In this document: positions 2,668-47,587 of the stretch, in pieces | Numbering within the stretch: position 1 is the first letter of the stretch | How the letters are laid out: each line of letters begins with the position of its first letter | NCBI RefSeq assembly: GCF_030418295.1 | Contig: NZ_JAUHQA010000001.1 | Span: forward strand, 2,480,001-2,544,000 | Length of the DNA stretch: 64,000 bases | Origin: Demequina muriae | Lineage (GTDB): Bacteria > Actinomycetota > Actinomycetes > Actinomycetales > Demequinaceae | Direction: 5' to 3' | Translations under genes and position numbers: made by a program | Notes under the pieces: model-generated | Told to the model about the DNA's origin: nothing | What the model saw: only the letters and a program-made list of their open reading frames with translations | The model's database searches: none

Positions 2668-3234
2668 ATGTCTCACACGCTCGACCAAGCGGTCGCCGTC
2701 GCCGGGTACTACCCGGCCCTCGCGAACTCCGTGCTCCGCACCGCGATCCGGGATGAGTCGGTGACCGCGCACTTCGTGCATGCCGAGACGACCTTCGACG
2801 ACCGCGAGGTGCGCCGGCACATGACGGTCCTCGTCGTGACGGAGACCCGGCTCATCCGCGTCCACATGGACGACGGCTCGGGCCACAGCGCCGAGGGCGC
2901 GCACGAGGCCTCCGCGACTGTCGAGACGGCGCTGCTCGCCGGCATCTCGAACATGGCGATGACGCACGTCGTGCATCACCCCGAGAACTTCAGCGACGGC
3001 GACTCGCCCAGCGAACTCGTCCTGGCCGTCGGCTGGGGAGTCCACTCCCGCGTCGAGCTCGAGCCGGCGACGTGCGGCGACGAGAACTGCGACGCCGACC
3101 ACGGGTACACGGGCGGCATCACCGGCGACGACACCCTGGTGCGGGTGAGCGCGATCGCCGACGGCGTGGAGACGGTCCGCGCTCTCGAGGACTTCGCGGC
3201 CACCCTGCAGCGCGCCATCGGGCCCCGCGGGTGA
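2668..3234 (+). CDS. DUF5998 family protein
   Basis: This 188 aa soluble protein starts [20 protein letters not shown] and resembles the actinobacterial DUF5998 family, whose function is unknown. No catalytic motif is visible. An acidic, cysteine-containing stretch ([12 protein letters not shown], near residues 136-147) could bind metal, but this is speculation. The next gene starts at a GTG overlapping this stop codon (GTGA), so the two are translationally coupled. The same arrangement, DUF5998 followed by an alkaline-phosphatase-like enzyme, is familiar from other Micrococcales. Confidence 0.75.
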
Positions 3235-4400
3235 GCCGGGCGGCCGAGCTCGCCGCGCTCGGTCTGAGCATGCCCGACTACGGCGGGCGCGAGCTGGGAG
3301 CGGTGCTGCCGGCCGCGCTGTCGGCGATCGGCGCCGGTCACGTGGTGACCCACCGCGACGCTGACGCGGACCGCAAGCGGCTGGGCCTGGCCCCCGCGCG
3401 CCACGTGGTCGTGGTGCTGCTCGATGGACTCGGGCACCTGGGCCTGGAAGCGCGACGCGGTCACGCTCCCTTCCTGCGCTCGGCCGAGCAGGGGGTGATC
3501 ACCGCCGGGTACCCCACCACGACGGCGGCGTCCCTGGCACTGTTCGGCACGGGGCAGCCGTCCGGTCGCACGGGGCTCACGGGCTATACCGCCCGCAACC
3601 CGCGCACGGGCGCCCTCGCGAACCTGGTGTCGTGGGAGGGGGCCTACGACGCTGTCGAGTGGCAGCGGCAGCCCTCGCTCCTCGAGAGTGCGGCCGCGGA
3701 CGGGTTCTCGGTGACCACTCTGGGGCGGCGACGTTTCGCAGGCTCCGGACTCACTCAGGCGGTGCTGCGCGGCGGCCGCTTCGTCGGCGCCGAACGACTC
3801 TCGGAGCGCATCGACGTGGCGTTGGCCACCGCCCGCGCTCCCGGAGTGTCCTACTGCTACTGGGGCGAGATCGACGCCGCCGGTCACCAGCACGGCTGGG
3901 GCTCCGAGGAATGGGTGGCGGCGCTTGAGGACGCGGACCGCGAGCTGCGCCGGCTGGCGGCGGGTCTGCCGGCCGATGCGACCATGGTCGTCACCGCGGA
4001 CCACGGCATGGTCGACGTGCCGGGCGCGGCCCGGTGGGACGTCGCGGACGAGCCCGCGCTGCGCGACGGCGTCGCTCTCATCGCAGGGGAGCCCCGCGCA
4101 CTGCACGTCCACACGGTGCCCGGGGTCGACCCGGCGGAGGTCGCAGCACGCTGGCGCGAGACGCTCGCGGGCCACGCGATGGTGTGGACGCGCGCCGAGG
4201 CCCGTGAGGACGCGCTGTTCGGAGAGCTGCTCGACGAGGTGGCCGAGAGGGTCGGCGACGTCGTGGTCGCGATGGCGGGCAGGGCCATCGTCGTGGACTC
4301 GCGCACGCAGTCCGCCAAGTCGATGGCGCTGGTGGGCATGCACGGCTCGCTGACGCCGGACGAGCTCCAGGTGCCGTGGCTGGTCGTCGACGGCCCGTGA
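3231..4400 (+). CDS. alkaline phosphatase superfamily nucleotide pyrophosphatase/phosphodiesterase
   Basis: Start chosen at the GTG at 3231, which overlaps the stop of the DUF5998 gene; the frame is open further upstream but runs inside that gene. The product is 389 aa. Metal-site motifs of the alkaline phosphatase superfamily are visible in order: VVLLDGLG (Asp65), the Thr nucleophile region YPTTTAASLALFGTG (about 94-108), EIDAAGHQHGW, TADHGM and GMHGS. It therefore probably hydrolyses phosphodiester or pyrophosphate bonds. The substrate is unknown. No signal peptide is seen, so it is likely cytoplasmic. Confidence 0.85.
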   Translation: MSRAAELAALGLSMPDYGGRELGAVLPAALSAIGAGHVVTHRDADADRKRLGLAPARHVVVVLLDGLGHLGLEARRGHAPFLRSAEQGVITAGYPTTTAASLALFGTGQPSGRTGLTGYTARNPRTGALANLVSWEGAYDAVEWQRQPSLLESAAADGFSVTTLGRRRFAGSGLTQAVLRGGRFVGAERLSERIDVALATARAPGVSYCYWGEIDAAGHQHGWGSEEWVAALEDADRELRRLAAGLPADATMVVTADHGMVDVPGAARWDVADEPALRDGVALIAGEPRALHVHTVPGVDPAEVAARWRETLAGHAMVWTRAEAREDALFGELLDEVAERVGDVVVAMAGRAIVVDSRTQSAKSMALVGMHGSLTPDELQVPWLVVDGP

Positions 4401-7717: not shown

Positions 7718-8173
7718 ATGACGCCTCTCGACGTGCTTGTCAGCACGACGGACCCTGATGTTCCGCTGCCGGTGTACTCCCACCCGGGAGACGCCGGCGC
7801 GGACATCACCACACGCATCGACGTCGACCTCGCGCCGGGCGAACGCGCGACCGTCCCGACGGGGCTGCGCATCGCGCTGCCCGCCGGCTTCGCCGCCTTC
7901 GTGCACCCTCGTTCCGGACTCGCGTCTCGGCACGGCGTGACGATCGTGAACGCTCCCGGCACCGTCGACGCCGGCTACCGAGGCGAACTCGCGGTGACCC
8001 TCCACAATACCGACGCGCACGAGACTGTCTCGCTGCGCCGCGGCGACCGCATCGCCCAGTTGGTGATTCAGCGCGTCGAGCACGCCTCGTTCGTCCCCGT
8101 CGAGACCCTTCCCGGCTCTCACCGTGGCGAGGGCGGCTTCGGGTCGACAGGCACAGGGGCCGGGTCACCGTGA
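7718..8173 (+). CDS. dut: deoxyuridine 5'-triphosphate nucleotidohydrolase (dUTPase)
   Basis: This enzyme hydrolyses dUTP to dUMP and pyrophosphate, keeping uracil out of DNA and supplying dUMP for dTMP synthesis. The 151 aa length is typical of the trimeric family. All five motifs are present: PGDAGADI, HPRSGLASRHG, GTVDAGYRGE, RGDRIAQLVI and the Gly-rich C-terminal RGEGGFGSTG. The stop codon overlaps the GTG start of the OB-fold gene. Confidence 0.95.
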   Translation: MTPLDVLVSTTDPDVPLPVYSHPGDAGADITTRIDVDLAPGERATVPTGLRIALPAGFAAFVHPRSGLASRHGVTIVNAPGTVDAGYRGELAVTLHNTDAHETVSLRRGDRIAQLVIQRVEHASFVPVETLPGSHRGEGGFGSTGTGAGSP

Positions 8174-8442
8174 TCGCCCAGGCGACCCCGATCTCCGACC
8201 TGCAGCCGCGCGCGATGGCCGCCATCGCGGGGCGCATCGTGTCGATCCAAGTGGAGCCGCGGGACGCTGCTCCCAAGCTCACCGCGCGAGTCGACGACGG
8301 CACCGGCCGCGTCGAAGCCATCTTCATGGGCCGGCGTGCGATCGCCGGCATCGAACCGGGCGCGCGCATCCGCCTCGAGGGCCGCGTCTGCGCCACCGAC
8401 GCGCTGCCCCGGCTGTACAACCCCCGATTCGAGCTCGGCTGA
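8170..8442 (+). CDS. small OB-fold nucleic-acid-binding protein
   Basis: This 90 aa protein starts at a GTG inside the end of dut (4-base overlap). The pattern IAGRIVSIQVEPR...LTARVDDGTGRVEAIFMGRR...RIRLEGRV is that of an OB-fold tRNA_anti-type domain, as in the C-terminal DNA-binding domains of replication proteins. A gene of this kind between dut and DUF3159 is a familiar actinobacterial arrangement. The ligand and role are unknown. Its stop shares one base with the next start. Confidence 0.8.
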   Translation: MIAQATPISDLQPRAMAAIAGRIVSIQVEPRDAAPKLTARVDDGTGRVEAIFMGRRAIAGIEPGARIRLEGRVCATDALPRLYNPRFELG

Positions 8443-9194
8443 TGACCCAGCGGCACGAGCCGGATCGCGAGGCCGCGACGGAGCCCGCGATGGCAGCTGA
8501 CACGGATTCCCTCAACGAGCCCGCCATGGTGGCGTCCGGAAAGTCGTCACGCGTCGCACAGCTGGTCTCGGGCGACGAGTTCTCGCTGGCCGATGCGATG
8601 GGTGGCTGGCGCGGCTTCGTCGAGTCCGCGGCGCCCGGCGTGGTGTTCGTGGTGGCGTATCTCGGCTGGGGAGGCTTCCGCATCCCCGTGATCGCCTCCG
8701 TGGCCACCGTGCTGGTCATGGTGGTCGTGCGGCTGGTGCAGCGCTCGAGCATCCAGCAGGCGCTGTCGGGTGTGTTCGGCGTGGCTCTGGGCGCGGTCTG
8801 GGCCTGGCGCTCGGGGGACGCGGGGGGCTACTTCGTGCCGGGCCTCTGGATCAACGTCGCGTACGCGGCCGGCACCCTGATCTCGATGGCCGTGCGGTGG
8901 CCCCTCGTCGGCATCGTGATGGGCCTGCTCAAGGGATGGGGGACGTCGTGGCGGCGCGACCCGCGTTCGATGCGCGCGATGCAGTGGGCGACGGCGATCA
9001 TCGCCGCGGTGTTCCTCCTGCGCCTCGCCGTGCAGGTGCCGCTGTACCTCGCGGACGCGATCGCCGCGCTCGGCACCGCGAAGCTCGCCATGGGAGTGCC
9101 GCTGTTCGCGCTCAGTCTGTGGGCGGTGTGGCTCCTGGTGCGGTCCGCAGCACCCGATCAAGCGCCTCAGGATCCGCCTCAGCCGACACGATGA
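8442..9194 (+). CDS. DUF3159 family integral membrane protein
   Basis: The 250 aa product has a charged N-terminal tail of about 50 residues. Several transmembrane helices follow: VVFVVAYLGWGGF; IPVIASVATVLVMVVVRLV; a Gly-rich helix; AYAAGTLISMAVRWPLVGIV; two more near 180-240. The DUF3159 pattern is clear; the function is unknown. The ATG overlaps the OB-fold stop (TGATG). Its last 83 bases overlap, tail to tail, the 3' end of the TrkA gene on the other strand, an unusually long convergent coding overlap. Confidence 0.85.
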   Translation: MTQRHEPDREAATEPAMAADTDSLNEPAMVASGKSSRVAQLVSGDEFSLADAMGGWRGFVESAAPGVVFVVAYLGWGGFRIPVIASVATVLVMVVVRLVQRSSIQQALSGVFGVALGAVWAWRSGDAGGYFVPGLWINVAYAAGTLISMAVRWPLVGIVMGLLKGWGTSWRRDPRSMRAMQWATAIIAAVFLLRLAVQVPLYLADAIAALGTAKLAMGVPLFALSLWAVWLLVRSAAPDQAPQDPPQPTR

Positions 9195-9798
9195 ACAGCA
9201 GTTCGTCGCGCGCCTCGAGCGTGTCGGCGGGCGACGGCGCGATGGTGCGATCGCCGCGCACGATGCAGGACAGCACCGTCTCGCTGGGCCAGTCGATCTC
9301 GCGGACGGTCGCCCCGACGACGGGGGCATCCGTGGGCAGGGTCACCTCGATGATGGACGCCCCGGACTGGTGGAAGGTGAAGACCTTCACCAAGTCGCCG
9401 ATCGCCACCGCCTCCTCGACCATCGCGGTCATGATGCGTGGCGTCGACACCGCGACGTCCACGCCCCACTGAGCGTCGTACATCCACTCGTTCCGGGGGT
9501 TGTTGACGCGCGCGACGGTGCGGGGCACCCCGAACTCGGTCTTCGACAGGAACGACACGACGAGGTTGGCCTTGTCGTCGCCGGTGGCGGCGACCACCAC
9601 ATCCATGCCCTCGGTGGCGGCCTCGCGCAGGGCGGCCATCTCGCACGCGTCCGCCAGCATCCACTCGGCCTCCGCCACCTGCGCGACGCGCATGGCGGAA
9701 GGGTTGTGGTCCATGAGGAGCACCTCGTGGCCATGATCGAGGAGGTCGCGGGCGATGGACCGTCCCACGGAGCCGGCACCGGCGATCAGCACCTTCAC
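9112..9798 (-). CDS. TrkA family potassium uptake regulatory protein (second of pair)
   Basis: This 228 aa protein has an N-terminal Rossmann RCK-N domain opening with MKVLIAGAGSVGRSIARDLL (GxGxxG nucleotide site, residues 7-12). Its C-terminal RCK-C domain (about 140-220) contains IIEVTLPTDAPVVGATVREI. Such subunits sense NAD(H) or nucleotide and gate K+ channels or transporters. It overlaps the upstream trkA paralogue by 4 bases, giving a CeoB/CeoC-like pair. No Trk membrane subunit is adjacent; the nearest transporter is the divergent APC permease. The 3' end overlaps DUF3159 by 83 bp. Confidence 0.88.
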   Translation of the reverse strand: MKVLIAGAGSVGRSIARDLLDHGHEVLLMDHNPSAMRVAQVAEAEWMLADACEMAALREAATEGMDVVVAATGDDKANLVVSFLSKTEFGVPRTVARVNNPRNEWMYDAQWGVDVAVSTPRIMTAMVEEAVAIGDLVKVFTFHQSGASIIEVTLPTDAPVVGATVREIDWPSETVLSCIVRGDRTIAPSPADTLEARDELLFIVSAEADPEALDRVLRTAPGATPPTD

Positions 9799-10460
9799 GA
9801 TTCGCCTCCAGGGGCACGCGACAGGACGCGTTGGGCACGGGCGCCCACGGCGTCGGGCACGACGAAGTAGATCTCGTCGCCGGACTGCACCGGCGACGTC
9901 GGCGTGGGAAGCACACCCTCCGAGAAGCGCACGAGGTAGGCGACGCGTGTGCCGGTGGCCGCCTCGAGGTCCTTGATCGGCTGGCCGACCCAGCCGCCGT
10001 GATACGCCAGCCGGCGCACCGCCACGGCCGCCGAGGAGTCCACGTAGACGTCGTCAGACCCTCCTGGCAGCAGCCGCGACACGATCTGCGCGCTGGTCCA
10101 TGGCACCGGCGCCACCGTGGGGATGCCGAGCCTGCGGTACACCTCGGCGCGGCCCGAGTCCGAGATCCGCGCGACGACGTTCGCGACACCGTACGTCTCG
10201 CGCACCACCCGCGCGGCAAGGATGTTGGAGTTGTCGCCCGATGACACGGCGGCGAATGCGTACGCATCCTCGACGCCGGCCGAGACGAGAGTCTCGCGGT
10301 CGAATCCGATGCCGGTGATCTTCTGGCCCTGGAAGTCGGAGGGCAGTCGGCGGAACGAGTCGCCAAGACGGTCGATCACCGCGACGGAATGGCCACGCGA
10401 CTCGAACTCCGACGCGAGCGCGGCGCCAGTGCGGCCGCAGCCCATGATCACGATATGCAC
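9795..10460 (-). CDS. TrkA family potassium uptake regulatory protein (first of pair)
   Basis: This 221 aa RCK protein has MHIVIMGCGRTGAALASEFE at its N-terminus (GxGxxG) and a C-terminal RCK-C domain (about 135-215). It is the promoter-proximal member of the two-gene RCK operon; its stop overlaps the start of the next gene by 4 bases. The two proteins probably form hetero-oligomers, as proposed for CeoB/CeoC. It is divergent from the APC permease across about 40 bp, and a TATAGC -10-like element faces this gene. Confidence 0.88.
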   Translation of the reverse strand: MHIVIMGCGRTGAALASEFESRGHSVAVIDRLGDSFRRLPSDFQGQKITGIGFDRETLVSAGVEDAYAFAAVSSGDNSNILAARVVRETYGVANVVARISDSGRAEVYRRLGIPTVAPVPWTSAQIVSRLLPGGSDDVYVDSSAAVAVRRLAYHGGWVGQPIKDLEAATGTRVAYLVRFSEGVLPTPTSPVQSGDEIYFVVPDAVGARAQRVLSRAPGGES

Positions 10461-10501: not shown

Positions 10502-12403
10502 GTGCGACGTATTCTCGAAGGACTGCGCCGGCTGGCCTTTGGCCAGCCGATCGCTACCGACGCGCTGGCACCGATGCAGCTGCGGACCAGACTTGCGTTG
10601 CCGGTGTTCGGCGCAGGCATCCTTTCTGCGGTCGCGTATGCGCCCGATGCGGTGGTGGACGCCCTTCGCCAGGGCAGTCAGCAAGGCGCCATTCCCTTCA
10701 TGGCCGGCGGCGTCGTTCTCATCATGCTGCTGCTCGGCCTGGCCTACTGGTCGAATGTGCGGACCAGGCCCGATGCGCTCGGCGACTACGGCACGGTCCG
10801 CGACCTGCTGGGTCGCAAGGCCGGCGTGGTCACCGGAGCCGCGCTGCTGGTCGACTACCTGTTCACCGTGGCCGTGTCCGTCGCCGCCGTCACTCAGCTG
10901 ATCGCGTACCTGATCCCATCAGCACGGGAGTGGGTGTCGCTCATCGGCGTCGCCTTGCTCGCCGTCATGACGCTCGTCGCCCTGCGGGTCATCCGCGACC
11001 GCGCCAGGGTGCTGCTGGCGGTGTGGTTCGGCTTCCTCATCGTCGTCGCGCTCATGCTGATCTTCGGCGTGGCGCGCCTGGGTGCGGACACCGCATCGCC
11101 GATCCCTGCGAACCCGCCCACCACCTGGGCCATCCTCGTCGCCTACGCCGGCGCGATCTCCTCCGGCGCCGTGATGGTGACGGGCATCGAGCACCTGGCC
11201 TCGGCGGGCCCCAACCACGCGGAGCCGCGTGGGCGCCGCGCAGGACGCACGCTGGTGATCGCGGTCGCGGCCTCGGCCGCCGCGTTCTTCGCCGTGGCCC
11301 TGCTGTCGTGGATGTACCGCATCACGGGCTGGGCGGACGGCCCCATCCTGCTGCAGACCGTCGACCAGGTCTTCCGCCAGCCCTGGGTGATCTGGGCGGT
11401 GGCGCTCTCCGCCGCCGCACTGCTGTACGCCGCCGCATCGGCCGTCTTCCGCCGCTTCTCAAGCCTCGCGGAGAGCCTCGCGAAGGATGCCTACCTGCCT
11501 CGCCAGCTGTCGATGAAGAACGACAGGCTCGTGCTGCGCGGCGGCATCTTCATCGTGGCCAGTGCCTCGGCGCTGGTGGTGGTGCTGTCCGGGGCGAACG
11601 TCGAGACTCTCATCCACATGTACGTCGTGGGAGTGTTCGCGTCGATCGTGCTGAGCCAGGTCGCCATGATGCGTCACTTCACGAACCGGCTGGCGCTCGC
11701 GACCGATGCGGCCTCACGCCTGCGCCACTCGGCGTCGCGGGCGCTGCACGCGACCGCCGCGGTGGTCGCCGCACTGGTGTGGATCGTCGTCGCGGTCTTC
11801 AACTTCTTCAACGGCGCGTGGTTCGCCATCGTCCTGATCGTCGGTCTCGTGGTGCTCATGCACAAGATCAACCGCCACTACGCCGCGGTGCGCCAGGACG
11901 TCCGTCTCACCGCGAAGGACAAGGCGGTCGCGCTGCCCAGCGCCACCCACGGCGTGGTGCTCGTCGCGCAGCTCCACCGGCCCGCCGTGCGTGCGCTCGC
12001 GTACGCCAAGGCGGCGCGTCACTCGACGCTCGAGGCCGTGGGCGTGCAGATCGAGCCGGCGGCCGCCAAGGAGCTGCAGGACCGCTGGGGCGAGATCGAC
12101 GCCGGCATCCCCTTGGTGATCCTCGACTCGCCGTATCGGGACCTGGTGGAGCCGGTGATGGCGCACGTGCGCTCCATCCATCGGCGCAGCCCGCGCGATG
12201 TGGTCGTGGTCTACGTGCCGGAGTACATCGTGGGACGCTGGTGGGAGACCTTCCTGCACAACCGCGCCACACGGCGACTGCGCGCCCAGCTCCTGGAGCT
12301 CGAGGGCGTGGTCGTCTCCGCGGTGCCGTGGCACCTCGCATCCGCGCGGGACCGCCGCGCCGACGAAGAGGCGCCACCCACCCCCCACGAGGAGTTGCCG
12401 TGA
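10502..12403 (+). CDS. APC superfamily amino acid/polyamine permease
   Basis: This 633 aa permease has about twelve hydrophobic segments within residues 30-460. Its N-terminal VFGAGILSAVAYAPDA fits helix 1 of the APC fold. A cytosolic C-terminal domain of about 170 residues follows (from MHKINRHYAAVRQDV), as in many actinobacterial orphan APC permeases. The substrate is not predictable. The GTG start at 10502 lies only 8 bases after TAGGAT (10488-10493), a plausible -10, so the transcript may be nearly leaderless. The stop overlaps the next GTG start. Being divergent from two RCK K+ regulators raises the possibility of K+ transport by a KUP-like role, but this is weak. Confidence 0.85.
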   Translation: MRRILEGLRRLAFGQPIATDALAPMQLRTRLALPVFGAGILSAVAYAPDAVVDALRQGSQQGAIPFMAGGVVLIMLLLGLAYWSNVRTRPDALGDYGTVRDLLGRKAGVVTGAALLVDYLFTVAVSVAAVTQLIAYLIPSAREWVSLIGVALLAVMTLVALRVIRDRARVLLAVWFGFLIVVALMLIFGVARLGADTASPIPANPPTTWAILVAYAGAISSGAVMVTGIEHLASAGPNHAEPRGRRAGRTLVIAVAASAAAFFAVALLSWMYRITGWADGPILLQTVDQVFRQPWVIWAVALSAAALLYAAASAVFRRFSSLAESLAKDAYLPRQLSMKNDRLVLRGGIFIVASASALVVVLSGANVETLIHMYVVGVFASIVLSQVAMMRHFTNRLALATDAASRLRHSASRALHATAAVVAALVWIVVAVFNFFNGAWFAIVLIVGLVVLMHKINRHYAAVRQDVRLTAKDKAVALPSATHGVVLVAQLHRPAVRALAYAKAARHSTLEAVGVQIEPAAAKELQDRWGEIDAGIPLVILDSPYRDLVEPVMAHVRSIHRRSPRDVVVVYVPEYIVGRWWETFLHNRATRRLRAQLLELEGVVVSAVPWHLASARDRRADEEAPPTPHEELP

Positions 12404-40496: not shown

Positions 40497-40568
40497 GGGC
40501 GATTGGCGCAGTGGTAGCGCGCTTCCTTCACACGGAAGAGGTCACTGGTTCGAACCCAGTATCGCCCA
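40497..40568 (+). tRNA. tRNA-Val (CAC)
   Basis: The acceptor GGGCGAT (40497-40503) pairs with ATCGCCC (40561-40567), and the discriminator is A. The anticodon arm CTTCC-TTCACAC-GGAAG gives CAC. CCA is not encoded. A TACTAT -10 element (40479-40484) sits 13 bp upstream. Its 3' half is the left attachment site of the island that follows. Confidence 0.95.
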
Positions 40569-40631
40569 CTCGTAGAAAGCCCTGGTATCCCTTCTCGCCG
40601 ATGGGTGCCAGGGCTTTTTGCATGCGCGGCG
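40523..40631 (+). repeat. left attachment repeat (attL) in tRNA-Val(CAC)
   Basis: This segment starts in the anticodon stem of tRNA-Val and runs through its terminator to about 40631. It is repeated in the same orientation at 44627-44735, 4104 bp away, with only five mismatches over the first 105 bases (positions 40543, 40573, 40588, 40614 and 40617). A direct repeat of the 3' half of a tRNA is the classic footprint of tyrosine-recombinase integration. Confidence 0.88.
40576..40619 (+). terminator. terminator of tRNA-Val(CAC)
   Basis: AGCCCTGG (40578-40585) pairs perfectly with CCAGGGCT (40608-40615), followed by a T run to 40619. It is part of the attachment repeat, so a slightly altered copy also exists at about 44681-44723. 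Confidence 0.8.
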
Positions 40632-40750
40632 TTGGTCGATGCGTGCCCTAACGGCACTCACAACCCCACCGCGAGGTGAGTCAACTCGAATGTAGGTGTT
40701 GTCCATGTGGAACAGCCTTGCCTGACCACCTCGAGTATCAGGAAGGCCGG

Positions 40751-41218
40751 ATGGTGAGAACGTACGAGCCGCGGGATCTCGGGGAGCTCGCCGAACTTGT
40801 GCGCAACGCGCGAGGTGCGATGCTCTCGATAGAGGCCGAACCGAGCCGGAACCTCAAGGAACTGTTCCCCGCGATGTGGTGTGAACATTCCTCTATCGTG
40901 ATAGCGGAGACGCTCCTGCGGCGAGGACTCGGTGCCTGGACCTTCGTCGCTATGGGGCACCGCGACGGTCCCAATGGTCACGCTTGGCTCGAGCTGCGAG
41001 ATGAGGGCGAGAATCGACTTGTGACGATCGACGCGACGATTGATCAGTTTGACTGGGGCAGGGACTTGCCTTTCGTGAGCGCGACGCAGACCCGTGCCGC
41101 GACAGAGTTCACCGTGCCGCGCTATTCGGGTCCATGGCAGCACTGGCCCGTTCTCGAGAGGGACTCCTCGTTTCTGACTTACGCCGAGGCCTTCGTGAGG
41201 CAGTCAGGCCTTATTTGA
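40751..41218 (+). CDS. transglutaminase/cysteine-protease-like protein (island)
   Basis: The ATG at 40751 follows GGAAGG; the frame is open to 40676. The 155 aa product shows a plausible papain-like triad: Cys in AMWCEHSSIVIAETLLRRG, His in GHAWLEL and Asp in TIDATIDQF, in the order and spacing of transglutaminase-like or NlpC-like hydrolases. No signal peptide or membrane segment is present, so it would act in the cytoplasm. The substrate is unknown. It is the first gene inside the island and has no partner on its strand nearby. Confidence 0.6.
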   Translation: MVRTYEPRDLGELAELVRNARGAMLSIEAEPSRNLKELFPAMWCEHSSIVIAETLLRRGLGAWTFVAMGHRDGPNGHAWLELRDEGENRLVTIDATIDQFDWGRDLPFVSATQTRAATEFTVPRYSGPWQHWPVLERDSSFLTYAEAFVRQSGLI

Positions 41219-41321
41219 GTGGTTTCTTCGCAGCGCAGGTTCTGCGACAGCAATGTCACAGCCAGAGCGCGCTGCGGAGTGACCCCAGCGCCGCAGCCTG
41301 CGGCTCAGAGCCGCAATGCTC

Positions 41322-41440
41322 CTAGATGTTCAGCGTCGTCGATGCTCTCGCGTGGCCGAGGACTCGAGGCATGGCGACGATGTCCGCACCGCCGGCGATC
41401 ATGAGTGAAGCGGCGGATTGGCGCAGAGTGTGCACGGACG
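41322..41440 (-). pseudogene. C-terminal remnant of a tyrosine integrase
   Basis: On the minus strand the frame reads HTLRQSAASLMIAGGADI and then RVLGHARASTTLNI, the HxLR box and LGH box of phage-type tyrosine recombinases. The codon after TTLNI, where the catalytic Tyr belongs, is TAG (41322-41324), followed by GAG CAT. The similarity fades upstream of about 41440, so the catalytic Arg I and the N-terminal domains are lost. Both facts argue that the island's own integrase is dead. Confidence 0.78.
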
Positions 41441-41499
41441 CCACGCACTGGCCCACCCGCGGCACCCCGACCAAGGCCGCACCTACGCGCCTGTTCGAT

Positions 41500-41796
41500 C
41501 TGCCGGTGCCGCTTGACGCGGCCATCCTTGAGGGGGAACCAATCGTCGCGGACTGGGCGACCGTGAGCCTGCGCCACCTCAATGGCATGGGCGTTCGCTG
41601 GCACGAGCACGGCGCCCAGACCGAGAGCGAGGCAGTGCTGGATATGTTCTCCCGCAACGTCCTGTACTTCCGCGCCGAGGTCCGCAACGCGCCGATCATC
41701 GCGTCGCCACTATCGGTGCGGCTCGTGGATCTCACGGCGGCGCAGGACGTGCCGCGCTGCCCGCCAGGTCCGGGGGCGTCGGCGTGTCGGAGGTAG
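41500..41796 (+). pseudogene. coding-like fragment of unknown family (island)
   Basis: The plus-strand frame ending at the TAG at 41794-41796 has strong GC-rich third positions and a protein-like composition, beginning about LFDLPVPLDAAILEGEPIVA and including GMGVRWHEHG, FSRNVLYFRAEVRN and SVRLVDLTAAQD. No convincing start is seen: the same frame upstream reads through the antisense integrase remnant. It may be the 3' part of a gene truncated when the elements recombined. I do not recognise the family. Confidence 0.4.
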
Positions 41797-41857
41797 GTGT
41801 CAGAGCCGCTCGCCAGACTAGACACGCCAACACAGGCATCGGGGAATTGGGGAGACC

Positions 41858-42103
41858 ATGGCCGAGAACATCCGCATCGAGTTCGACGAGCAGGCACTCA
41901 ACAGGCTCGGCGGCGACATCGCTGCAAAGGCCGAGAAGGCGATCAACGGCGTTGCCGACGACATGGCAGGAGGCAACTCAGACGCAATCGCTGTCGAGAT
42001 TGAGAAGCGGCTGCGCTCTGTAGGCATCGAGCCACACTCAAGCGTTGTGAAAGAGCACGCTGAGAGGATCGCACTAGCCCGAGGGGCCGACGCCAGTGAC
42101 TGA
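41858..42103 (+). CDS. small helical protein of unknown function (island)
   Basis: This 81 aa protein starts at an ATG after GGGGAGACC. It is predicted to be mostly helical and charged (AAKAEKAINGVADDM; VEIEKRLRSVGIEP) and ends HAERIALARGADASD. Small proteins of similar layout occur on actinobacterial mobile elements, but I cannot name a family. It overlaps the next gene by 8 bases, which suggests translation coupling and a joint role. Confidence 0.55.
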   Translation: MAENIRIEFDEQALNRLGGDIAAKAEKAINGVADDMAGGNSDAIAVEIEKRLRSVGIEPHSSVVKEHAERIALARGADASD

Positions 42104-42689
42104 CGCGCCGTTATGGCTTCAGGTGACTGCCGTTGCAGTCCCTGCACTTGTGAGCATCGGTTCGGCTATTTGGGCGTCCAGGTCGGCGAACAGGGCGAGA
42201 AGGTCCGAACGCGACGCTGCTCGGCTTCTAGCGCTTGAAGAACGTACAGCGAGCAAAAAGTACGAGTTGTACGAGCCGTTTGTGGTTCACCTTGGTGATC
42301 TCCTGACGCCCGCACGCAAGGAGGCTGCGGAGGTGCGATCAGAAGAGGTGATGGCTGACTTCCAAACCTCGGTGATGATGTGGGGCTCCGACGATGCGGT
42401 GAGCGCGTTCTCTCGTTTCCGACGAGCATCGTCGACCAATCCACCGGGCCACATAGCCATGAGGTTAGTGGCCGATCTGCTGCTGGCGATCCGTCGCGAC
42501 GTAGCAGTACCTGACAGTCGTGCGACAGGCATGGAGATCCTGGGATCGCGTCTGAACGACTTGAAGAAAGGCAGCGCGATCACCCGTGCCCTTGAAGCTC
42601 CATTTCCCGAGGTTTGCAAGGAGCACGGTTGGGAGCCACCGTTCGACTTTGAGGAGCCCCGGCGCGCACGCTTCGGTAGACGGCGATAG
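42096..42689 (+). CDS. single-pass membrane protein of unknown function (island)
   Basis: The GTG start at 42096 lies inside the end of the 81 aa gene. The 197 aa product has one N-terminal transmembrane helix (VTAVAVPALVSIGSAIWASR), a short basic coiled segment (SANRARRSERDAARLLALEE), and a soluble helical domain that includes FQTSVMMWGSDDAVSAFSRF. The overall layout is seen in many uncharacterised accessory-region proteins. No enzyme motif is visible. Confidence 0.6.
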   Translation: MTDAPLWLQVTAVAVPALVSIGSAIWASRSANRARRSERDAARLLALEERTASKKYELYEPFVVHLGDLLTPARKEAAEVRSEEVMADFQTSVMMWGSDDAVSAFSRFRRASSTNPPGHIAMRLVADLLLAIRRDVAVPDSRATGMEILGSRLNDLKKGSAITRALEAPFPEVCKEHGWEPPFDFEEPRRARFGRRR

Positions 42690-42753
42690 CGGCGCGCAGG
42701 ACCACGCGAACTGGACTTGTCGAGCTGTCGTAGGGGGCCGATAGGGTCACGTC

Positions 42754-43404
42754 ATGGCAGCTAACACTTGCGGCTGGTGCAACCACCGCACCCACATGGC
42801 ATTCGTAAAGGGCACCTACTACTCGGCCCGTGATGGCCAGTTCGATTTTCACAATGCTGCCTACCAGTGCATCAATTGCGAGCGGTACTCGGTGGCGTAC
42901 TGGCAACATCTCTACTACGAGCCTGATCCGTCAGAAGGGCGGTTCGTGGGTGATGGGGGTGGACCAGTTCCTCCGGACTGCGCAGTTTGGAATCCACCGG
43001 CAGGGGCACGCAAGGAGTTCCCCGATGTCCCCGACCACCTCGGTGCAGTCGCGTCCGAGGCGCACCTGTGCCGGGCAACGGGCGCACTGCGAGGGTCAGT
43101 GATACTTGCTCGCTCAGTCATTGAAGGTGTGGCGAAGCATCTTGGTTGTGACGAGTGGGGGATCCAAGCAAAGATCACGTGGCTCCGTGAACAACAGCAC
43201 ATAAGGCCCAAGACCTTCGAGGCTGCGAACGCTCTGCGCCTCGCGGGCAACGACATCGCGCACGCGGATCCTGGTGAGTCCGTTACCGCCGAAGAATGCG
43301 ACGAACTCCTGGTCCTCATGGCTGTAGTTCTGGACGAGGCCCTTGAATCGGACGTGCGGCTCGCCCGCGTGAAGGAAGCGCGAGAGGCTCGCACCGGCAA
43401 GTAG
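42754..43404 (+). CDS. DUF4145 domain protein with N-terminal zinc-ribbon-like cysteines (island)
   Basis: This 216 aa protein opens with CGWCNHRTHM and has a second pair, CINCERY, giving a CxxC-N29-CxxC zinc-ribbon pattern. The DUF4145 part (about 90-200) includes ALRGSVILARSVIEGVAKHL and ANALRLAGNDIAHADPGES. DUF4145 proteins are common on mobile elements and near restriction or abortive-infection genes, and are thought to be HEPN-related. No RxxxxH-type catalytic HEPN motif is obvious here. The function is open. Confidence 0.72.
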   Translation: MAANTCGWCNHRTHMAFVKGTYYSARDGQFDFHNAAYQCINCERYSVAYWQHLYYEPDPSEGRFVGDGGGPVPPDCAVWNPPAGARKEFPDVPDHLGAVASEAHLCRATGALRGSVILARSVIEGVAKHLGCDEWGIQAKITWLREQQHIRPKTFEAANALRLAGNDIAHADPGESVTAEECDELLVLMAVVLDEALESDVRLARVKEAREARTGK

Positions 43405-43442
43405 GGTCCAACCGTCGTACCTCGGCGGATGAAGGGAACTCT

Positions 43443-44447
43443 GTGGCATTCGAACCGTTCGACGCTGCTTGGCAACGTTGGGAGCGGGCCCGTGCGCGCA
43501 TGACGGAAGCGGTGCAGGTCTGGAACGGTTTCATCGAGCCGCATGACGCCTTCGACTTCAGCCTGGACGGTGACGACACCGGGGTTTTCATTTTGCGGGT
43601 GCACCAGGTCCGTCCGACGCCACCAGAAATGGCCGTCGTCATCGGCGAGTGGCTTTACAACCTTCGAGCTGCCCTTGACTACCTCATGTGGGCGACCGCC
43701 TGCTACGTCGCCGGGTCTGTCCCGCCCCCCAAGGAGAACGTCCTTCAGTACCCGATCTACGACACAGAGTCAGCGTGGACGAGCAATCTCTACAGGCTGG
43801 ATGGCCTTCTCGATCACCATCGAGAGATGCTGCTATTGATGCAGCCGTTCAATAGCGATATAGACGCAAACTACCTCGGTTGGCTTAACCGCCTCGCGCG
43901 CATCGACCGGCACCGAAACCTCGTCACAGGTTCGGCACGTCTTGGTCTGGTTGAGCCTGTGCTGAGGTGCCCCGAGGGTAGCCGCGTGATAGTGGAGTGG
44001 GGCGAACGGATGATCGTCGACGGTCGGGCGGACGTGGCACGGTTCACAGTTCAGCCGTACTGGCCCGGAGCGGTTGTGGACGTGAATCCGCGCGTAGGTA
44101 TCGACCCGGAGATCGATGAGTGGTCTCGTTCACCATTCTGGGGCAAAGTCACTTTCCAGGAGCGCCTGCGGATGATTCAGGTGTTCGTTGCGGGGGAGAT
44201 TGCGGCATATGAGTACGACTGCACCGGGTCAAGCCGGAAGTCCAACATGGTTAGCGATGAGTTCCAGAAGGCTATGGACGAGCGGCGGGGACCCGTGCCC
44301 AAACTTGCACGGCAGCGGCCACCCATGACGTGGACGCGGGGTTCGGGCAAGGTGTCTACGCGCACGATGTTCGAAGGTGCGGATTTTTGCGATGACGGCG
44401 CCGGCCCGATCGATAGCGGTCCTTCGGGCTTGGGAGTGGCGCGCTAA
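43443..44447 (+). CDS. uncharacterised accessory protein with helical N-terminal domain (island)
   Basis: This 334 aa protein starts at a GTG after GAAGGGA. The N-terminal part has long helices (AAWQRWERARARMTEAVQVW) and the segment GEWLYNLRAALDYLMWAT, a motif I have seen in unannotated proteins of actinobacterial phages and islands. The C-terminal half is mixed alpha/beta. The last ~40 residues (after WTRGSGKVSTRTMFEGAD) look disordered. It is the last gene before the right attachment repeat. No function can be assigned. Confidence 0.62.
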   Translation: MAFEPFDAAWQRWERARARMTEAVQVWNGFIEPHDAFDFSLDGDDTGVFILRVHQVRPTPPEMAVVIGEWLYNLRAALDYLMWATACYVAGSVPPPKENVLQYPIYDTESAWTSNLYRLDGLLDHHREMLLLMQPFNSDIDANYLGWLNRLARIDRHRNLVTGSARLGLVEPVLRCPEGSRVIVEWGERMIVDGRADVARFTVQPYWPGAVVDVNPRVGIDPEIDEWSRSPFWGKVTFQERLRMIQVFVAGEIAAYEYDCTGSSRKSNMVSDEFQKAMDERRGPVPKLARQRPPMTWTRGSGKVSTRTMFEGADFCDDGAGPIDSGPSGLGVAR

Positions 44448-44626: not shown

Positions 44627-44735
44627 TTCCTTCACACGGAAGAGGTCGCTGGTTCGAACCCAGTATCGCCCACTCGCAGAAAGCCCTGGTAACCCTTCTC
44701 GCCGATGGGTGCCAGGGTTTCTTGCATGCGCTGCG
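44627..44735 (+). repeat. right attachment repeat (attR), partial tRNA-Val copy
   Basis: This second copy of the attachment repeat contains the 3' part of tRNA-Val from the anticodon stem (44627) to the discriminator (44672), plus a slightly changed terminator hairpin. The 5' half of the tRNA is absent, so it cannot be functional. It marks the right end of the island. The remaining bases to the hydrolase start at 44801 show no gene. Confidence 0.85.
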
Positions 44736-44800
44736 CGGGCCGTTGGCGCCATTATGTCTGTCGCATGCCGGGAGTAGCATCGACCAGAGGTGATGACCTC

Positions 44801-45610
44801 ATGACGACAGCGCGTTCTACGCCGCACACCACCACCTCGGCCGACGGCACCGAGATCGTGCGCTGGTCGAGCGGAGCCGGCCCGCCCCTGCTCCTGGTGC
44901 ATGGCGCGATGTCGGACCACCGGCGCTGGCGCATCGTGCCGCACCTCACGCCCCATGCGACCGTGCACGCGATGGATCGGCGTGGCCGAGGAGAGAGCGG
45001 CGACGCGCTGGAGTGGTCCCTGGACCGGGAAGTCGCGGACATCGTCGCCGTCGTCGATGCCATCGCGGACGAATCCGGGTCTCCTGTGGACGTGCTCGGT
45101 CACTCTCTCGGTGGCCTGCTGACGTTGCGTGCCGCGCTGGACACCTCGAACATCCGGCGACTCGTCGTCTACGAACCCTCCGTCAACGAGCTCGCGTGCT
45201 CTCCGCAGACAATCGCCGCCATGGAGGCGCACCTCGGGCGCGGAGACCGGGCCGCAGCGGTGCGCACCATGATGCGTGAGATCGTGCTCATGCCCGAAGG
45301 CGAGATCGAATACCTCGAGTCGCTGCCCTCGTGGCACACCAGGCTTGCTGCAGCGCACACACTGCCTCGCGAGTTGGGCACGGATCTGGTCATGCGACCC
45401 GCAGACCTGCGGCAGATCACCGTGCCCGTGGTGAGCATCCTGGGTGGCGATAGCCCCGAGTCCGTACAGGCTGCAGCGCACATGATGGCGGCCAATGTGC
45501 CGCGCCACCAACTGATCGTGATCGAGGGCCAGCAGCATGTGGCGGACCAGGTCGTTCCGGAGGAGTTCGCGCGTCACGTGCTCCGCTTCCTGCGCGACGA
45601 GGCCCGGTAG
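44801..45610 (+). CDS. alpha/beta hydrolase
   Basis: This 269 aa protein has an oxyanion region LLLVHGAMSDHRRW, the nucleophile elbow VLGHSLGGLL and a late His in EGQQHVADQV, which fit the alpha/beta-hydrolase triad; the acid is probably the Asp in LGGDSPES. No signal peptide is seen. The ATG at 44801 is preferred for its position after GAGGTGATG; an in-frame ATG lies at 44765. It is the first gene outside the island. The substrate is unknown. Confidence 0.85.
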   Translation: MTTARSTPHTTTSADGTEIVRWSSGAGPPLLLVHGAMSDHRRWRIVPHLTPHATVHAMDRRGRGESGDALEWSLDREVADIVAVVDAIADESGSPVDVLGHSLGGLLTLRAALDTSNIRRLVVYEPSVNELACSPQTIAAMEAHLGRGDRAAAVRTMMREIVLMPEGEIEYLESLPSWHTRLAAAHTLPRELGTDLVMRPADLRQITVPVVSILGGDSPESVQAAAHMMAANVPRHQLIVIEGQQHVADQVVPEEFARHVLRFLRDEAR

Positions 45611-45675
45611 GTCGCTGGGGACGCATGGGCGACAGTCGCTCGCCGTCCGCGAGCGCCTCCGGGTATCTCCGCCGT

Positions 45676-47436
45676 TCAGTCGCGGCAGGTCGACTCCGCC
45701 GGGGTGCCGGCGAACCGCTCCTCGGTCCAGGTGAGGAGCTCGCCCACCAGCGCGGACTCGTCGGCGACGATGCTGAGGTGATCTTCGTCGGGGTACGTCC
45801 GGTAGTCGAGCTCGTGACCGTCCGCGCACCGCTGATCCACATACGCCTGTTGTGCGGCTGGCAGCACCAAGGGGTCGGCGTCCCCTTGAGCCAGCAGGAG
45901 CGGCGCGTCAATGGCGCCGGAGGGGACGTTCTCGGCGAGCCTGTCCACGAATGCGCCGGTCTTGGCGTCGTCGGTGAAGATCGTGTCGCCGAACAGGAAG
46001 GTCTCGATCACAGAGACGAGTGCCCCAGGCTCGGCTAGGCAGCGGCCAGCGATCTCCTTGACCTGCACTCGTGCCGCCGGGCGGACGATGTCGTCGAAGG
46101 ACACATCGTCGTAGACCGCGCTGTAGGCCTCGACGATGTAGGACGCGAACAAGGTGCCGCCCGGGACGACGTCGAGGTTGTCAACAAGTCCAGGAAGATT
46201 GCTCGCGGGTGCCATCGCGGAGACGCCGACCACCCCGGCATCCGGCGCGTAGTCCGATGCGAGGACGCCGGCCCACAACGCGGCGTGGCCGCCCTGCGAA
46301 TGACCCCAGACCACCGTGCCGTCAGCCCACACGACGTCCCGCAGCTGCCGGGCGGCGCGCACGCTATCGAGCACCGACCGGCCCTCCGCTTGGCCGATCA
46401 GATAGGGGTGTGGACTCTCGGTTCCCAGGCCCACGTAGTCGGTCGCGACCATCACCCACCCGTTGTCGACGACCTGGGGCAGCGCCGGCGTCGCCCCTGC
46501 TTCGAAAGGGTGCTCCAGCACTGATGGAGCACATCCTGGCACCACGCCCGTCGTGCCGTGCGCCCAGGCGACGATGGGGCGGGGCTCTGTGCTGGCTGCA
46601 AGTGGCGCCACCACGAGAGCACTGGCGACGGCAGGCTGCCCCTGGTCACGCGTGGTCGTGTAGAGGATCCGCCAAGCCAGCGCGCCATCCGGGACGTCGC
46701 GGGTGAAAGGCTCGCTCGCTAGGAGCACGCCGGGCTCGGCCGGCACGTCGTCTGGCGGGTCGTAGAAATCGTCGGCGACTGGAGTGCCCTGCCGCAACGT
46801 GACGCTCACCGTCACGAGCAGCAGAGCCACGGCGAGCGCCATGATGGCGCCGAGGGTCCGGACGAATCGTCGGGCGGTGCCCGCGGTGCGAGTCTCGGGA
46901 TCGACGTCGGGGGCACCACGCAGCGCCGCCCACACCAGTCCGACTCCGGCGAGCACGGTGCGGACTCCGAAGAGGACGGCGACCACGAAGACAGTGACGT
47001 CTGGCCACACCAGCGCCAGCGCGCCCAACAGGAGTCCCGCGCCTCCCAGGAGCGCCGATGCGAGACGGGCATCGACAGTGCCGCGCAGCGCCGCGGCGAC
47101 GCGGAGCGCACCGGCCAGCGCCATGGCGAGTCCGGCCACGACTGCGAGCACCTGCAGAGTGGGGCCGGGCCAGAGTGCGACGACGGTTGCGGCCGTGACC
47201 CATCCCAGGCCGGTGATGCGAGCAGCGGCCCGCGAGCGCCCGCTGCGGGCAGCCGTCAACTCACCGATGCCGGTGAGTGCCATGGCCGTGATCACCAGCA
47301 GCACCAGGACTGCGAGAGAGGCGAACGGCGTCACCGTCAGCACCGCGCCGACCAGGACGAGGAGCAGCCCCACGACGAGGCGACCCCATGGGCGCGCAAG
47401 CCGCGGCGCGGATTCAGACACCACCGAAGCGCTCAT
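45676..47436 (-). CDS. DUF308-type membrane domain fused to a secretory-lipase-like hydrolase
   Basis: This 586 aa fusion has about seven hydrophobic helices in residues 15-230, in the pattern of HdeD/DUF308 proteins (for example VGLLLVLVGAVLTVTPFASL). An extracytoplasmic hydrolase of the secretory-lipase (LIP) type follows. It has IVAWAHGTTGVVPGC, the nucleophile elbow VWGHSQGGHAALW, Asp in AQGDADPLVLP and His in YPDEDHLS. The product is thus a membrane-anchored esterase or lipase, probably facing outward. ATG at 47436; a GTG two codons earlier is in frame. Its 3' end converges on the alpha/beta hydrolase. Confidence 0.8.
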   Translation of the reverse strand: MSASVVSESAPRLARPWGRLVVGLLLVLVGAVLTVTPFASLAVLVLLVITAMALTGIGELTAARSGRSRAAARITGLGWVTAATVVALWPGPTLQVLAVVAGLAMALAGALRVAAALRGTVDARLASALLGGAGLLLGALALVWPDVTVFVVAVLFGVRTVLAGVGLVWAALRGAPDVDPETRTAGTARRFVRTLGAIMALAVALLLVTVSVTLRQGTPVADDFYDPPDDVPAEPGVLLASEPFTRDVPDGALAWRILYTTTRDQGQPAVASALVVAPLAASTEPRPIVAWAHGTTGVVPGCAPSVLEHPFEAGATPALPQVVDNGWVMVATDYVGLGTESPHPYLIGQAEGRSVLDSVRAARQLRDVVWADGTVVWGHSQGGHAALWAGVLASDYAPDAGVVGVSAMAPASNLPGLVDNLDVVPGGTLFASYIVEAYSAVYDDVSFDDIVRPAARVQVKEIAGRCLAEPGALVSVIETFLFGDTIFTDDAKTGAFVDRLAENVPSGAIDAPLLLAQGDADPLVLPAAQQAYVDQRCADGHELDYRTYPDEDHLSIVADESALVGELLTWTEERFAGTPAESTCRD

Positions 47437-47587
47437 GCGCACCTCGCGATCATCATGGTCACGGCGTACGTGACGCGTCCATCCGCGTGGGTGTGGCGTC
47501 CCCGATCGACGCCACGACTACAGGGCTCCAGGGTATTCGATGCCCCCAATCCCGCACCAGAGGGAGCGCTCACCTAGGGTGAGACCC

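Follow-up and report, generated by a model that had tools for sequence, protein, structure and literature searches.

A probable prophage remnant at a tRNA-Val gene of Demequina muriae retains open accessory genes, including a DUF4145 gene and one whose product is predicted to be HEPN-like in fold

Here we describe a 4,104-bp element in the actinobacterium Demequina muriae (assembly GCF_030418295.1, contig NZ_JAUHQA010000001.1), located within a stretch of 64,000 nt (contig positions 2,480,001 to 2,544,000, forward strand) that was analysed whole and is referred to below as the window. The element is flanked by a 119-nt direct repeat, the copies of which are 92% identical, with the first copy starting inside an intact tRNA-Val(cac) gene. 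Between the repeats lie five open cargo reading frames (ORFs) and, between the first and second of these, two broken phage genes. The features are as follows, in window coordinates:

40497..40569, + strand: tRNA-Val(cac), intact, the integration target (ARAGORN)
40523..40641, + strand: attachment-site (att) L-like direct repeat, 119 nt, comprising the tRNA 3' end and the downstream terminator-like region; 10 mismatches to the attR-like copy
40751..41218, + strand: P155, 155 aa, Cys44-His77-Asp94 layout; the open frame extends to a GTG at 40676
41322..41441, - strand: integrase relic, tyrosine recombinase C-terminus (HxxR...LGH) with the rest missing; from PF00589, PHROG and alignment to the genome G008
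41512..41742 (approximate), + strand: probable capsid relic, from the C-terminal part of an HK97-type major capsid protein; covers residues 48-124 of the ORF 41371-41796
41858..42103, + strand: P81, 81-aa ORF for which no relatives were found
42096..42689, + strand: P197, 197 aa, GTG start, one N-terminal membrane-like segment
42754..43404, + strand: P216, 216 aa, zinc ribbon plus DUF4145 (HEPN superfamily), PD-T7-4-like
43443..44447, + strand: P334, 334 aa, GTG start, unnamed phage/island family, HEPN-like predicted fold; motifs R75..D79 and D155-R-H157-R
44627..44745, + strand: attR-like direct repeat, partial tRNA-Val 3' end and downstream sequence

The borders of the element, the gene families and the conserved residues were computed directly, as were the integrase relic, the probable capsid relic and the lack of co-occurrence among the loci searched. 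The G+C content is 0.62 between the repeats and 0.70 in the rest of the window, and the element is present as a single copy in its own 2.8-Mb genome. A first-pass annotation of this DNA had placed five same-direction ORFs here and called them island cargo. The five ORFs are indeed all on the + strand, with products of 155, 81, 197, 216 and 334 aa, and the att-like repeats and the difference in G+C content bear out the island.

Decayed prophages integrated at tRNA genes show a partial tRNA repeat, an integrase gene pointing to the tRNA and relics of phage genes. At this locus the repeat at the tRNA is present and the integrase survives only as a relic with a PF00589 match below the cut-off; the element differs from such prophages in that almost all phage genes are gone and mostly cargo is left. 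The integrase relic matches PHROG integrases at 2.5e-4 and aligns across 36 residues, including HxxR and LGH, with an intact integrase of the congener G008, which lies at the same tRNA and in the same orientation. In G008 (locus L071, G008:C17, 5716-13267), the intact integrase gene (PF00589, 2.2e-27) and then a helix-turn-helix (HTH) gene directly follow tRNA-Val(cac). Beyond the HTH gene there are terminase-like genes, named by eye, that is, here and below, from the output of a rough home-made gene finder alone. This is apparently a prophage at the same tRNA-Val site. At the same tRNA, G029 has a stub resembling an integrase (by eye). On the far side of a partial tRNA copy it carries a gene with a sub-threshold DUF4062 match (0.00043) that also matches the PADLOC candidate PDC-S60 (3e-10). 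From the integrase content of G008 and G029, phages seem to use tRNA-Val(cac) in this genus; a query of the tRNA with its downstream DNA matches all 44 genus genomes, G039 only partly.

The second broken gene is probably a capsid relic. Its sole match among 50,697 phage records is the major capsid protein of RootBeer, at the C-terminus of that protein, with a local alignment score of 81 versus 31 +/- 4.7 for shuffled sequences (0 of 500 as high), and the alignment ends close to both stops. We regard this assignment as probable and not certain because Pfam has no match for the stretch. The integrase and capsid stubs are adjacent, as a large internal deletion would leave them. It is distinctly unlikely that the element is a small integrative element or satellite in which the capsid-like stretch is a chance likeness or a picked-up fragment: a size of 4.1 kb and a tRNA site also fit satellites, the E-value of the capsid match is only 0.08, and a single-protein scan of viral contigs found no relative of the stretch, but the only phage match falls on a capsid C-terminus, ending near both stops, and integrase, HTH and phage-like genes stand at the same tRNA in G008. 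The evidence for a prophage remnant at the tRNA, carrying accessory genes, is fairly good.

Among the cargo, P216 carries a zinc-ribbon motif (C6xxC9/C39xxC42) and matches Pfam DUF4145 (PF13643) at 1.8e-11, with 44.4 bits against a curated cut-off of 23.1, as well as PHROG 1305 at 1.7e-17. The string RLAGNDIAH at residues 162-170 fits RxxGNxxAH, which we take to be the HEPN active-site region of the DUF4145 family, and R162, G165, N166, A169 and H170 are invariant in three P216-family sequences. Residues 5-192 match the PADLOC model PD-T7-4 at 3.6e-8 (profile positions 15-177 of 211), a weak match for which no curated cut-off is given; the same model matches three of three P216 relatives (9.9e-5 to 1.3e-8). 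Relatives were found in seven plasmid records and on two viral contigs, in the latter slightly before recombinase-like genes (by eye). According to the available part of PMC3710099, DUF4145 counts among the HEPN families, retains the active-site motif in most cases and occurs in restriction-modification operons. Together with the Pfam and PADLOC matches, this upholds the earlier claim of a zinc-ribbon DUF4145 protein with a link to defence. In the portion of PMC9519451 at hand, PD-T7-4 is a single-gene anti-phage system with homologues on integrase-bearing elements. P216 matches its PADLOC model over most of its length and likewise lies on such an element, but it is distant (31 bits) and actinobacterial, and the likeness is one of sequence only.

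P334 belongs to a family of about 250-330 aa with the motifs HNLRSALD and DKH. Class-wide searches used samples of 394 or 296 genomes, and a whole-protein search found P334 relatives in 18 of 394, the D. muriae genome included, one of them at 51%. Within the genus, P334-like genes occur in two of 44 genomes, again including its own; the second is weak and located elsewhere. An alignment of nine sequences, all from the whole-protein search, comprised P334 itself, relatives from 7 of the 17 other class genomes and one from G012, the class genomes left out being those not fetched as wide loci or without a clean ORF; R75, L78, D79, P104, Q134, P135, D155, H157 and R158 are common to all nine. Scanning viral contigs for two conserved motifs yielded 29 P334-family loci, so that many unannotated phage-borne proteins have the GEWLYNLRAALDYLMW motif, in agreement with the earlier statement that it is shared with other unannotated phage or island proteins. 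For alignment and for counts of neighbours and G+C content, 26 of these were used, L104, L113 and L117 being copies or near-copies. With P334 added, R75, A77, L78, D79 and H157 are invariant, D155 is found in 25 of 27 and K or R occupies position 156 in 27 of 27; R..ALD and [KR]H are kept in all 26 viral relatives and, by reading, in the three left-out copies. Since the viral loci were found by the two motif patterns, these counts are inflated; these R, D and H are also invariant in the nine-sequence alignment, whose members came from whole-protein search. A scan of the viral contigs with P334 as a single protein found no relatives. The 27 family members gave one PHROG match (0.0067) and one PADLOC match (0.0073), none of the Pfam models that they hit stands for the family itself, and for this family the NCBIfam search covered P334 only. 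BFVD held two matches at E <0.001, neither of them named, and the motif strings were not found in the open-access literature searched. Beside the closest relative (51%), in L072 at 10969-11634, lies a GIY-YIG-like gene (by eye) whose third-position G+C is below that of genes further out.

In the viral loci, the P334-family gene is on the minority strand in 22 of 26 cases, and its G+C content is lower than that of its locus in 23, equal in two and higher in one. Both neighbours are on the opposite strand for 8 of the 22 family genes with both neighbours seen, versus 32 of 241 other genes in these loci, with genes called by the same rough gene finder. The only phage record matched by P334 in a tblastn search is prophiGD13-2, in which the gene reads + alone among - genes. 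This pattern of strand and G+C content resembles the way morons tend to look.

An AlphaFold2 model of P334 has a mean predicted local distance difference test score (pLDDT) of 71.5, with ten-residue means of 78-96 over residues 1-160, mostly 52-67 over 161-230, 90 over 241-260 and below 50 from 282. In the model, helix 1 spans residues 7-31, helix 2 spans 61-90 and contains R75 and D79, helix 3 spans 144-157 and ends at H157, and a later helix spans 238-261. The model superposes on entries of the HEPN superfamily, which in the part of PMC3710099 at hand includes DUF4145, Ymh, Csm6/Csx1 and HepT, and places the invariant His at the end of helix 3. The first four VIA-align ranks are all HEPN entries, namely 4nqf (Z 9.1, root-mean-square deviation 3.6, 127 residues aligned), 7bxo (7.7), 6m6w (7.5) and the Csm6 structure 6tug (7.0), and the first other row has Z 5.8. 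The model thus suggests that P334 is HEPN-like in fold, short of a proven HEPN member.

Among the literature matches listed for HEPN proteins of prophages or morons, the nearest described system is Tha, a tail-activated HEPN anti-phage system of S. aureus prophages (PMC11087260, available in part). As described there, Tha is a single prophage-borne gene of ~300 aa with a HEPN domain, a layout that P334 would share, and it gave DALI Z scores of 9.9 and 9.0 to HEPN-MNT and Csm6 structures; the P334 model has VIA Z scores of 7.7 and 7.0 to the same two kinds. Whereas the accessible text places an R-x4-H in the C-terminal domain of Tha, the P334 family has no conserved Rx4-6H and shows R..D within helix 2 and D-K-H where helix 3 ends. 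We tentatively suggest, at somewhat less than even odds, that P334 represents a widespread unnamed family of HEPN-fold RNases, single-gene morons largely on phages and islands, with a rearranged active site (Arg and Asp contributed by helix 2, [DG]-[KR]-His by the end of helix 3), which would act as an undescribed anti-phage effector.

To assess co-occurrence of the cargo genes, each of the five products was compared by tblastn with 127 of 135 loci, eight loci of the D. muriae genome being left out, at E 1e-3. Locus length varies between ~3.3 kb and 20 kb, roughly one in three extending no more than 1.5 kb on either side, and some loci overlap; most were fetched for one of the five proteins, and remote relatives escape a single-sequence tblastn. 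Of the 127 loci, 69 had a relative of one of the five (41 P334, 14 P197, 11 P216 and 3 P155, some being overlapping copies of one place), and none had two of the five together. The genome G144 has relatives of both P334 and P197, on different contigs. As far as the searched loci go, the five genes travel alone. The first-pass annotation had grouped them as a possible small module and had named their never co-occurring elsewhere as the outcome that would speak against it; within these loci they were never found together, P81 has no relatives, and the module is not borne out.

The same counts bear on the idea that the five genes form one functional defence operon of sensor, membrane effector, HEPN RNase and protease, which we consider improbable. 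All five read in one direction, and P81 and P197 overlap by 8 nt (42096-42103), as had been noted before. In addition, a HEPN-like gene (PF05168 at 0.025, below cut-off) stands just before a P197 relative in G180, and a DUF4145 gene overlaps a small membrane-protein gene in G216; from these two arrangements, HEPN and membrane-protein neighbours recur loosely. Opposed to an operon are the 69 loci with one of the five and none with two, the lack of P81 relatives and the phage relics between genes 1 and 2.

The remaining cargo is less readily classified. P155 has WC at residues 43-44, GHAW at 76-79 and DAT at 94-96. Among 296 sampled class genomes it has one strong relative (54% identical) and one weak one, and the C-H-D order, which the first-pass annotation had pointed out, is kept in the former. 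That relative sits between a control-type HTH gene and the PADLOC candidate defence gene PDC-S61 (3.7e-57). P155 had no Pfam match at E up to 10 and no match among PDB sequences, and no relatives in viral contigs by a two-sequence alignment scan. Identification as a known protease was tried and rejected, Pfam, NCBIfam, PADLOC, PHROGs, PDB sequences and two fold searches giving nothing usable. Its VIA list had no row at Z >=5, which is uninformative either way. A papain/transglutaminase-like protease or amidase is the putative enzyme class.

P81 has a coding-like G+C content by codon position (0.68/0.42/0.74), but no relative was found in 296 sampled genomes, phage records or viral contigs, so that its coupling to P197 is not conserved. 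The idea that P81 corresponds to the gene next after the capsid gene of HK97-type phages was rejected: against RootBeer gp7 it scored 33, with shuffles at 31.8 +/- 5.3 and 189 of 500 as high. The membrane-like segment of P197 is its one hydrophobic stretch, at residues 10-28 (Kyte-Doolittle value 1.72). With two patterns, P197 relatives were found at no fewer than 8 loci from named genomes, Streptomyces, Kitasatospora and Actinophytocola among them; of the 296 class genomes sampled, 5 are positive, including its own. A single-protein scan of viral contigs found none. In L077, at 9098-10337, a HEPN-like gene (RRRGDIVHG) directly precedes a P197 relative and has a DUF6414 gene upstream of it, making a pair of HEPN and membrane-protein genes.

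With relatives of four of the five in other genomes, the ORFs are more than chance. We nevertheless weighed whether the element might be junk, a decaying prophage remnant whose ORFs are open only because the loss was recent and which has no present function; we hold this to be unlikely, though it deserves some weight. The integrase and capsid genes are stubs, and after the same tRNA in the sister G002 (~90% DNA identity in two flanking blocks) the DUF4145 relative is broken, with only residues 117-205 recovered, in two frames. This single case, in the one close relative seen with the gene, is as far as the data go towards the frequent truncation in relatives that had been raised as a counter-indication. 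On the other side, all five cargo ORFs are open, most with coding-like G+C content by codon position, while the phage genes are stubs, and the motif residues of P216 and the family-invariant R75, D79 and H157 of P334 are kept.

We therefore favour, with a probability of roughly 0.6, a decayed prophage at tRNA-Val(cac) that retains accessory ('moron') genes as separately acting anti-phage cargo. Several results weigh against this reading or parts of it. The integrase relic falls slightly under the Pfam cut-off (PF00589, 3.9e-5), the capsid E-value is weak, and tblastn of P216, P197, P155 and P81 gave no match in phage records. In the window, P334 reads in the direction of its neighbours, unlike most of its viral relatives. 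Its HEPN-like fold is challenged from several sides: none of the 27 family members matches HEPN Pfam models at E up to 1, which sets the family apart from the superfamily; comparison of the P334 profile with DUF4145 by hhalign gave a probability of 0.2%, with no relation found; VIA ranks 2 and 3 (7bxo and 6m6w) are the same toxin-antitoxin, and Z scores of 7-9 can come from common helical arrangements; the best Foldseek match in the PDB has E 0.31, none being significant, and RnlA, also a HEPN enzyme, appears at ranks 5 and 6 with E >1 and TM-scores of ~0.1. The classical Rx4-6H spacing occurs in only 2 of 27 sequences of the viral alignment and 2 of the nine from the whole-protein search, with the His in 27 of 27, and it is for this reason that P334 is called only HEPN-like in fold. 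P334 itself has R150-x6-H157, and some accepted HEPN families are without the motif Arg (PMC3710099, in the part available). The single-sequence model of P155 is poor (pLDDT 42) and found no match in fold searches.

Under the decayed-prophage reading, a temperate phage would have integrated at tRNA-Val(cac), bringing or gathering morons, and the prophage would then have lost nearly everything between the integrase and the right end. What remained of the integrase gene (- strand, pointing to the tRNA) and of the major capsid gene (+ strand), a C-terminal stub in each case, would have been left side by side, while five accessory genes stayed open as cargo expressed in lysogeny and acting one by one. 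P216 would be a PD-T7-4-type zinc-ribbon HEPN protein that detects an incoming phage and halts growth by cleaving RNA through its HEPN site. P334 would likewise have a HEPN-like fold, its active site being formed by R75/D79 (helix 2) together with D155-R-H157 where helix 3 ends. P197 would act as an accessory anchored in the membrane, and P155 as a protease or amidase of the class named above. By analogy with PD-T7-4 (PMC9519451) and Tha (PMC11087260), each as described in the available portions, the two HEPN-like products may cut RNA on sensing another phage and stop the cell. We infer RNase activity, a trigger, phage defence and expression for the cargo, as well as the enzyme class of P155.

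Some observations were made around this and related tRNA-Val sites. To the right of the attR-like repeat, window positions 44801-47442 hold two hydrolase-like genes (by eye). This segment has no match in the compared 15 kb of G002, so that the variable region extends beyond the element. In G002 itself (L069, 4683-9730), the same tRNA is followed by a repeat-rich gene that looks surface-exposed (by eye), the broken DUF4145 relic and a UvrA-like gene. In L134 (G032:C6:262000-274000), at 8006-8758, a Hypoth_Ymh gene (PF09509, 1.3e-24) is flanked by a second tRNA-Val match on one side and a partial tRNA copy on the other; Ymh is a HEPN family according to the available part of PMC3710099, and from this gene tRNA-Val sites in the genus may be hot spots for HEPN genes. 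In L133 (G008:C15), at 2782-3735, the gene nearest a partial tRNA copy encodes a 317-aa protein with RVGFKHHG, an Rx4H-like string, which matched no Pfam or PADLOC family at a useful score. Among the open-literature matches listed, none gave a related description of a tRNA-Val prophage remnant.

The element suggests which genes outlive a prophage, the accessory genes being open where integrase and capsid are reduced to stubs. The P334 family, with its invariant Arg, Asp and His, is unnamed in the profile libraries searched and lies on many viral contigs. If the family is an RNase, a group of 'hypothetical' phage genes would become testable as anti-phage effectors.

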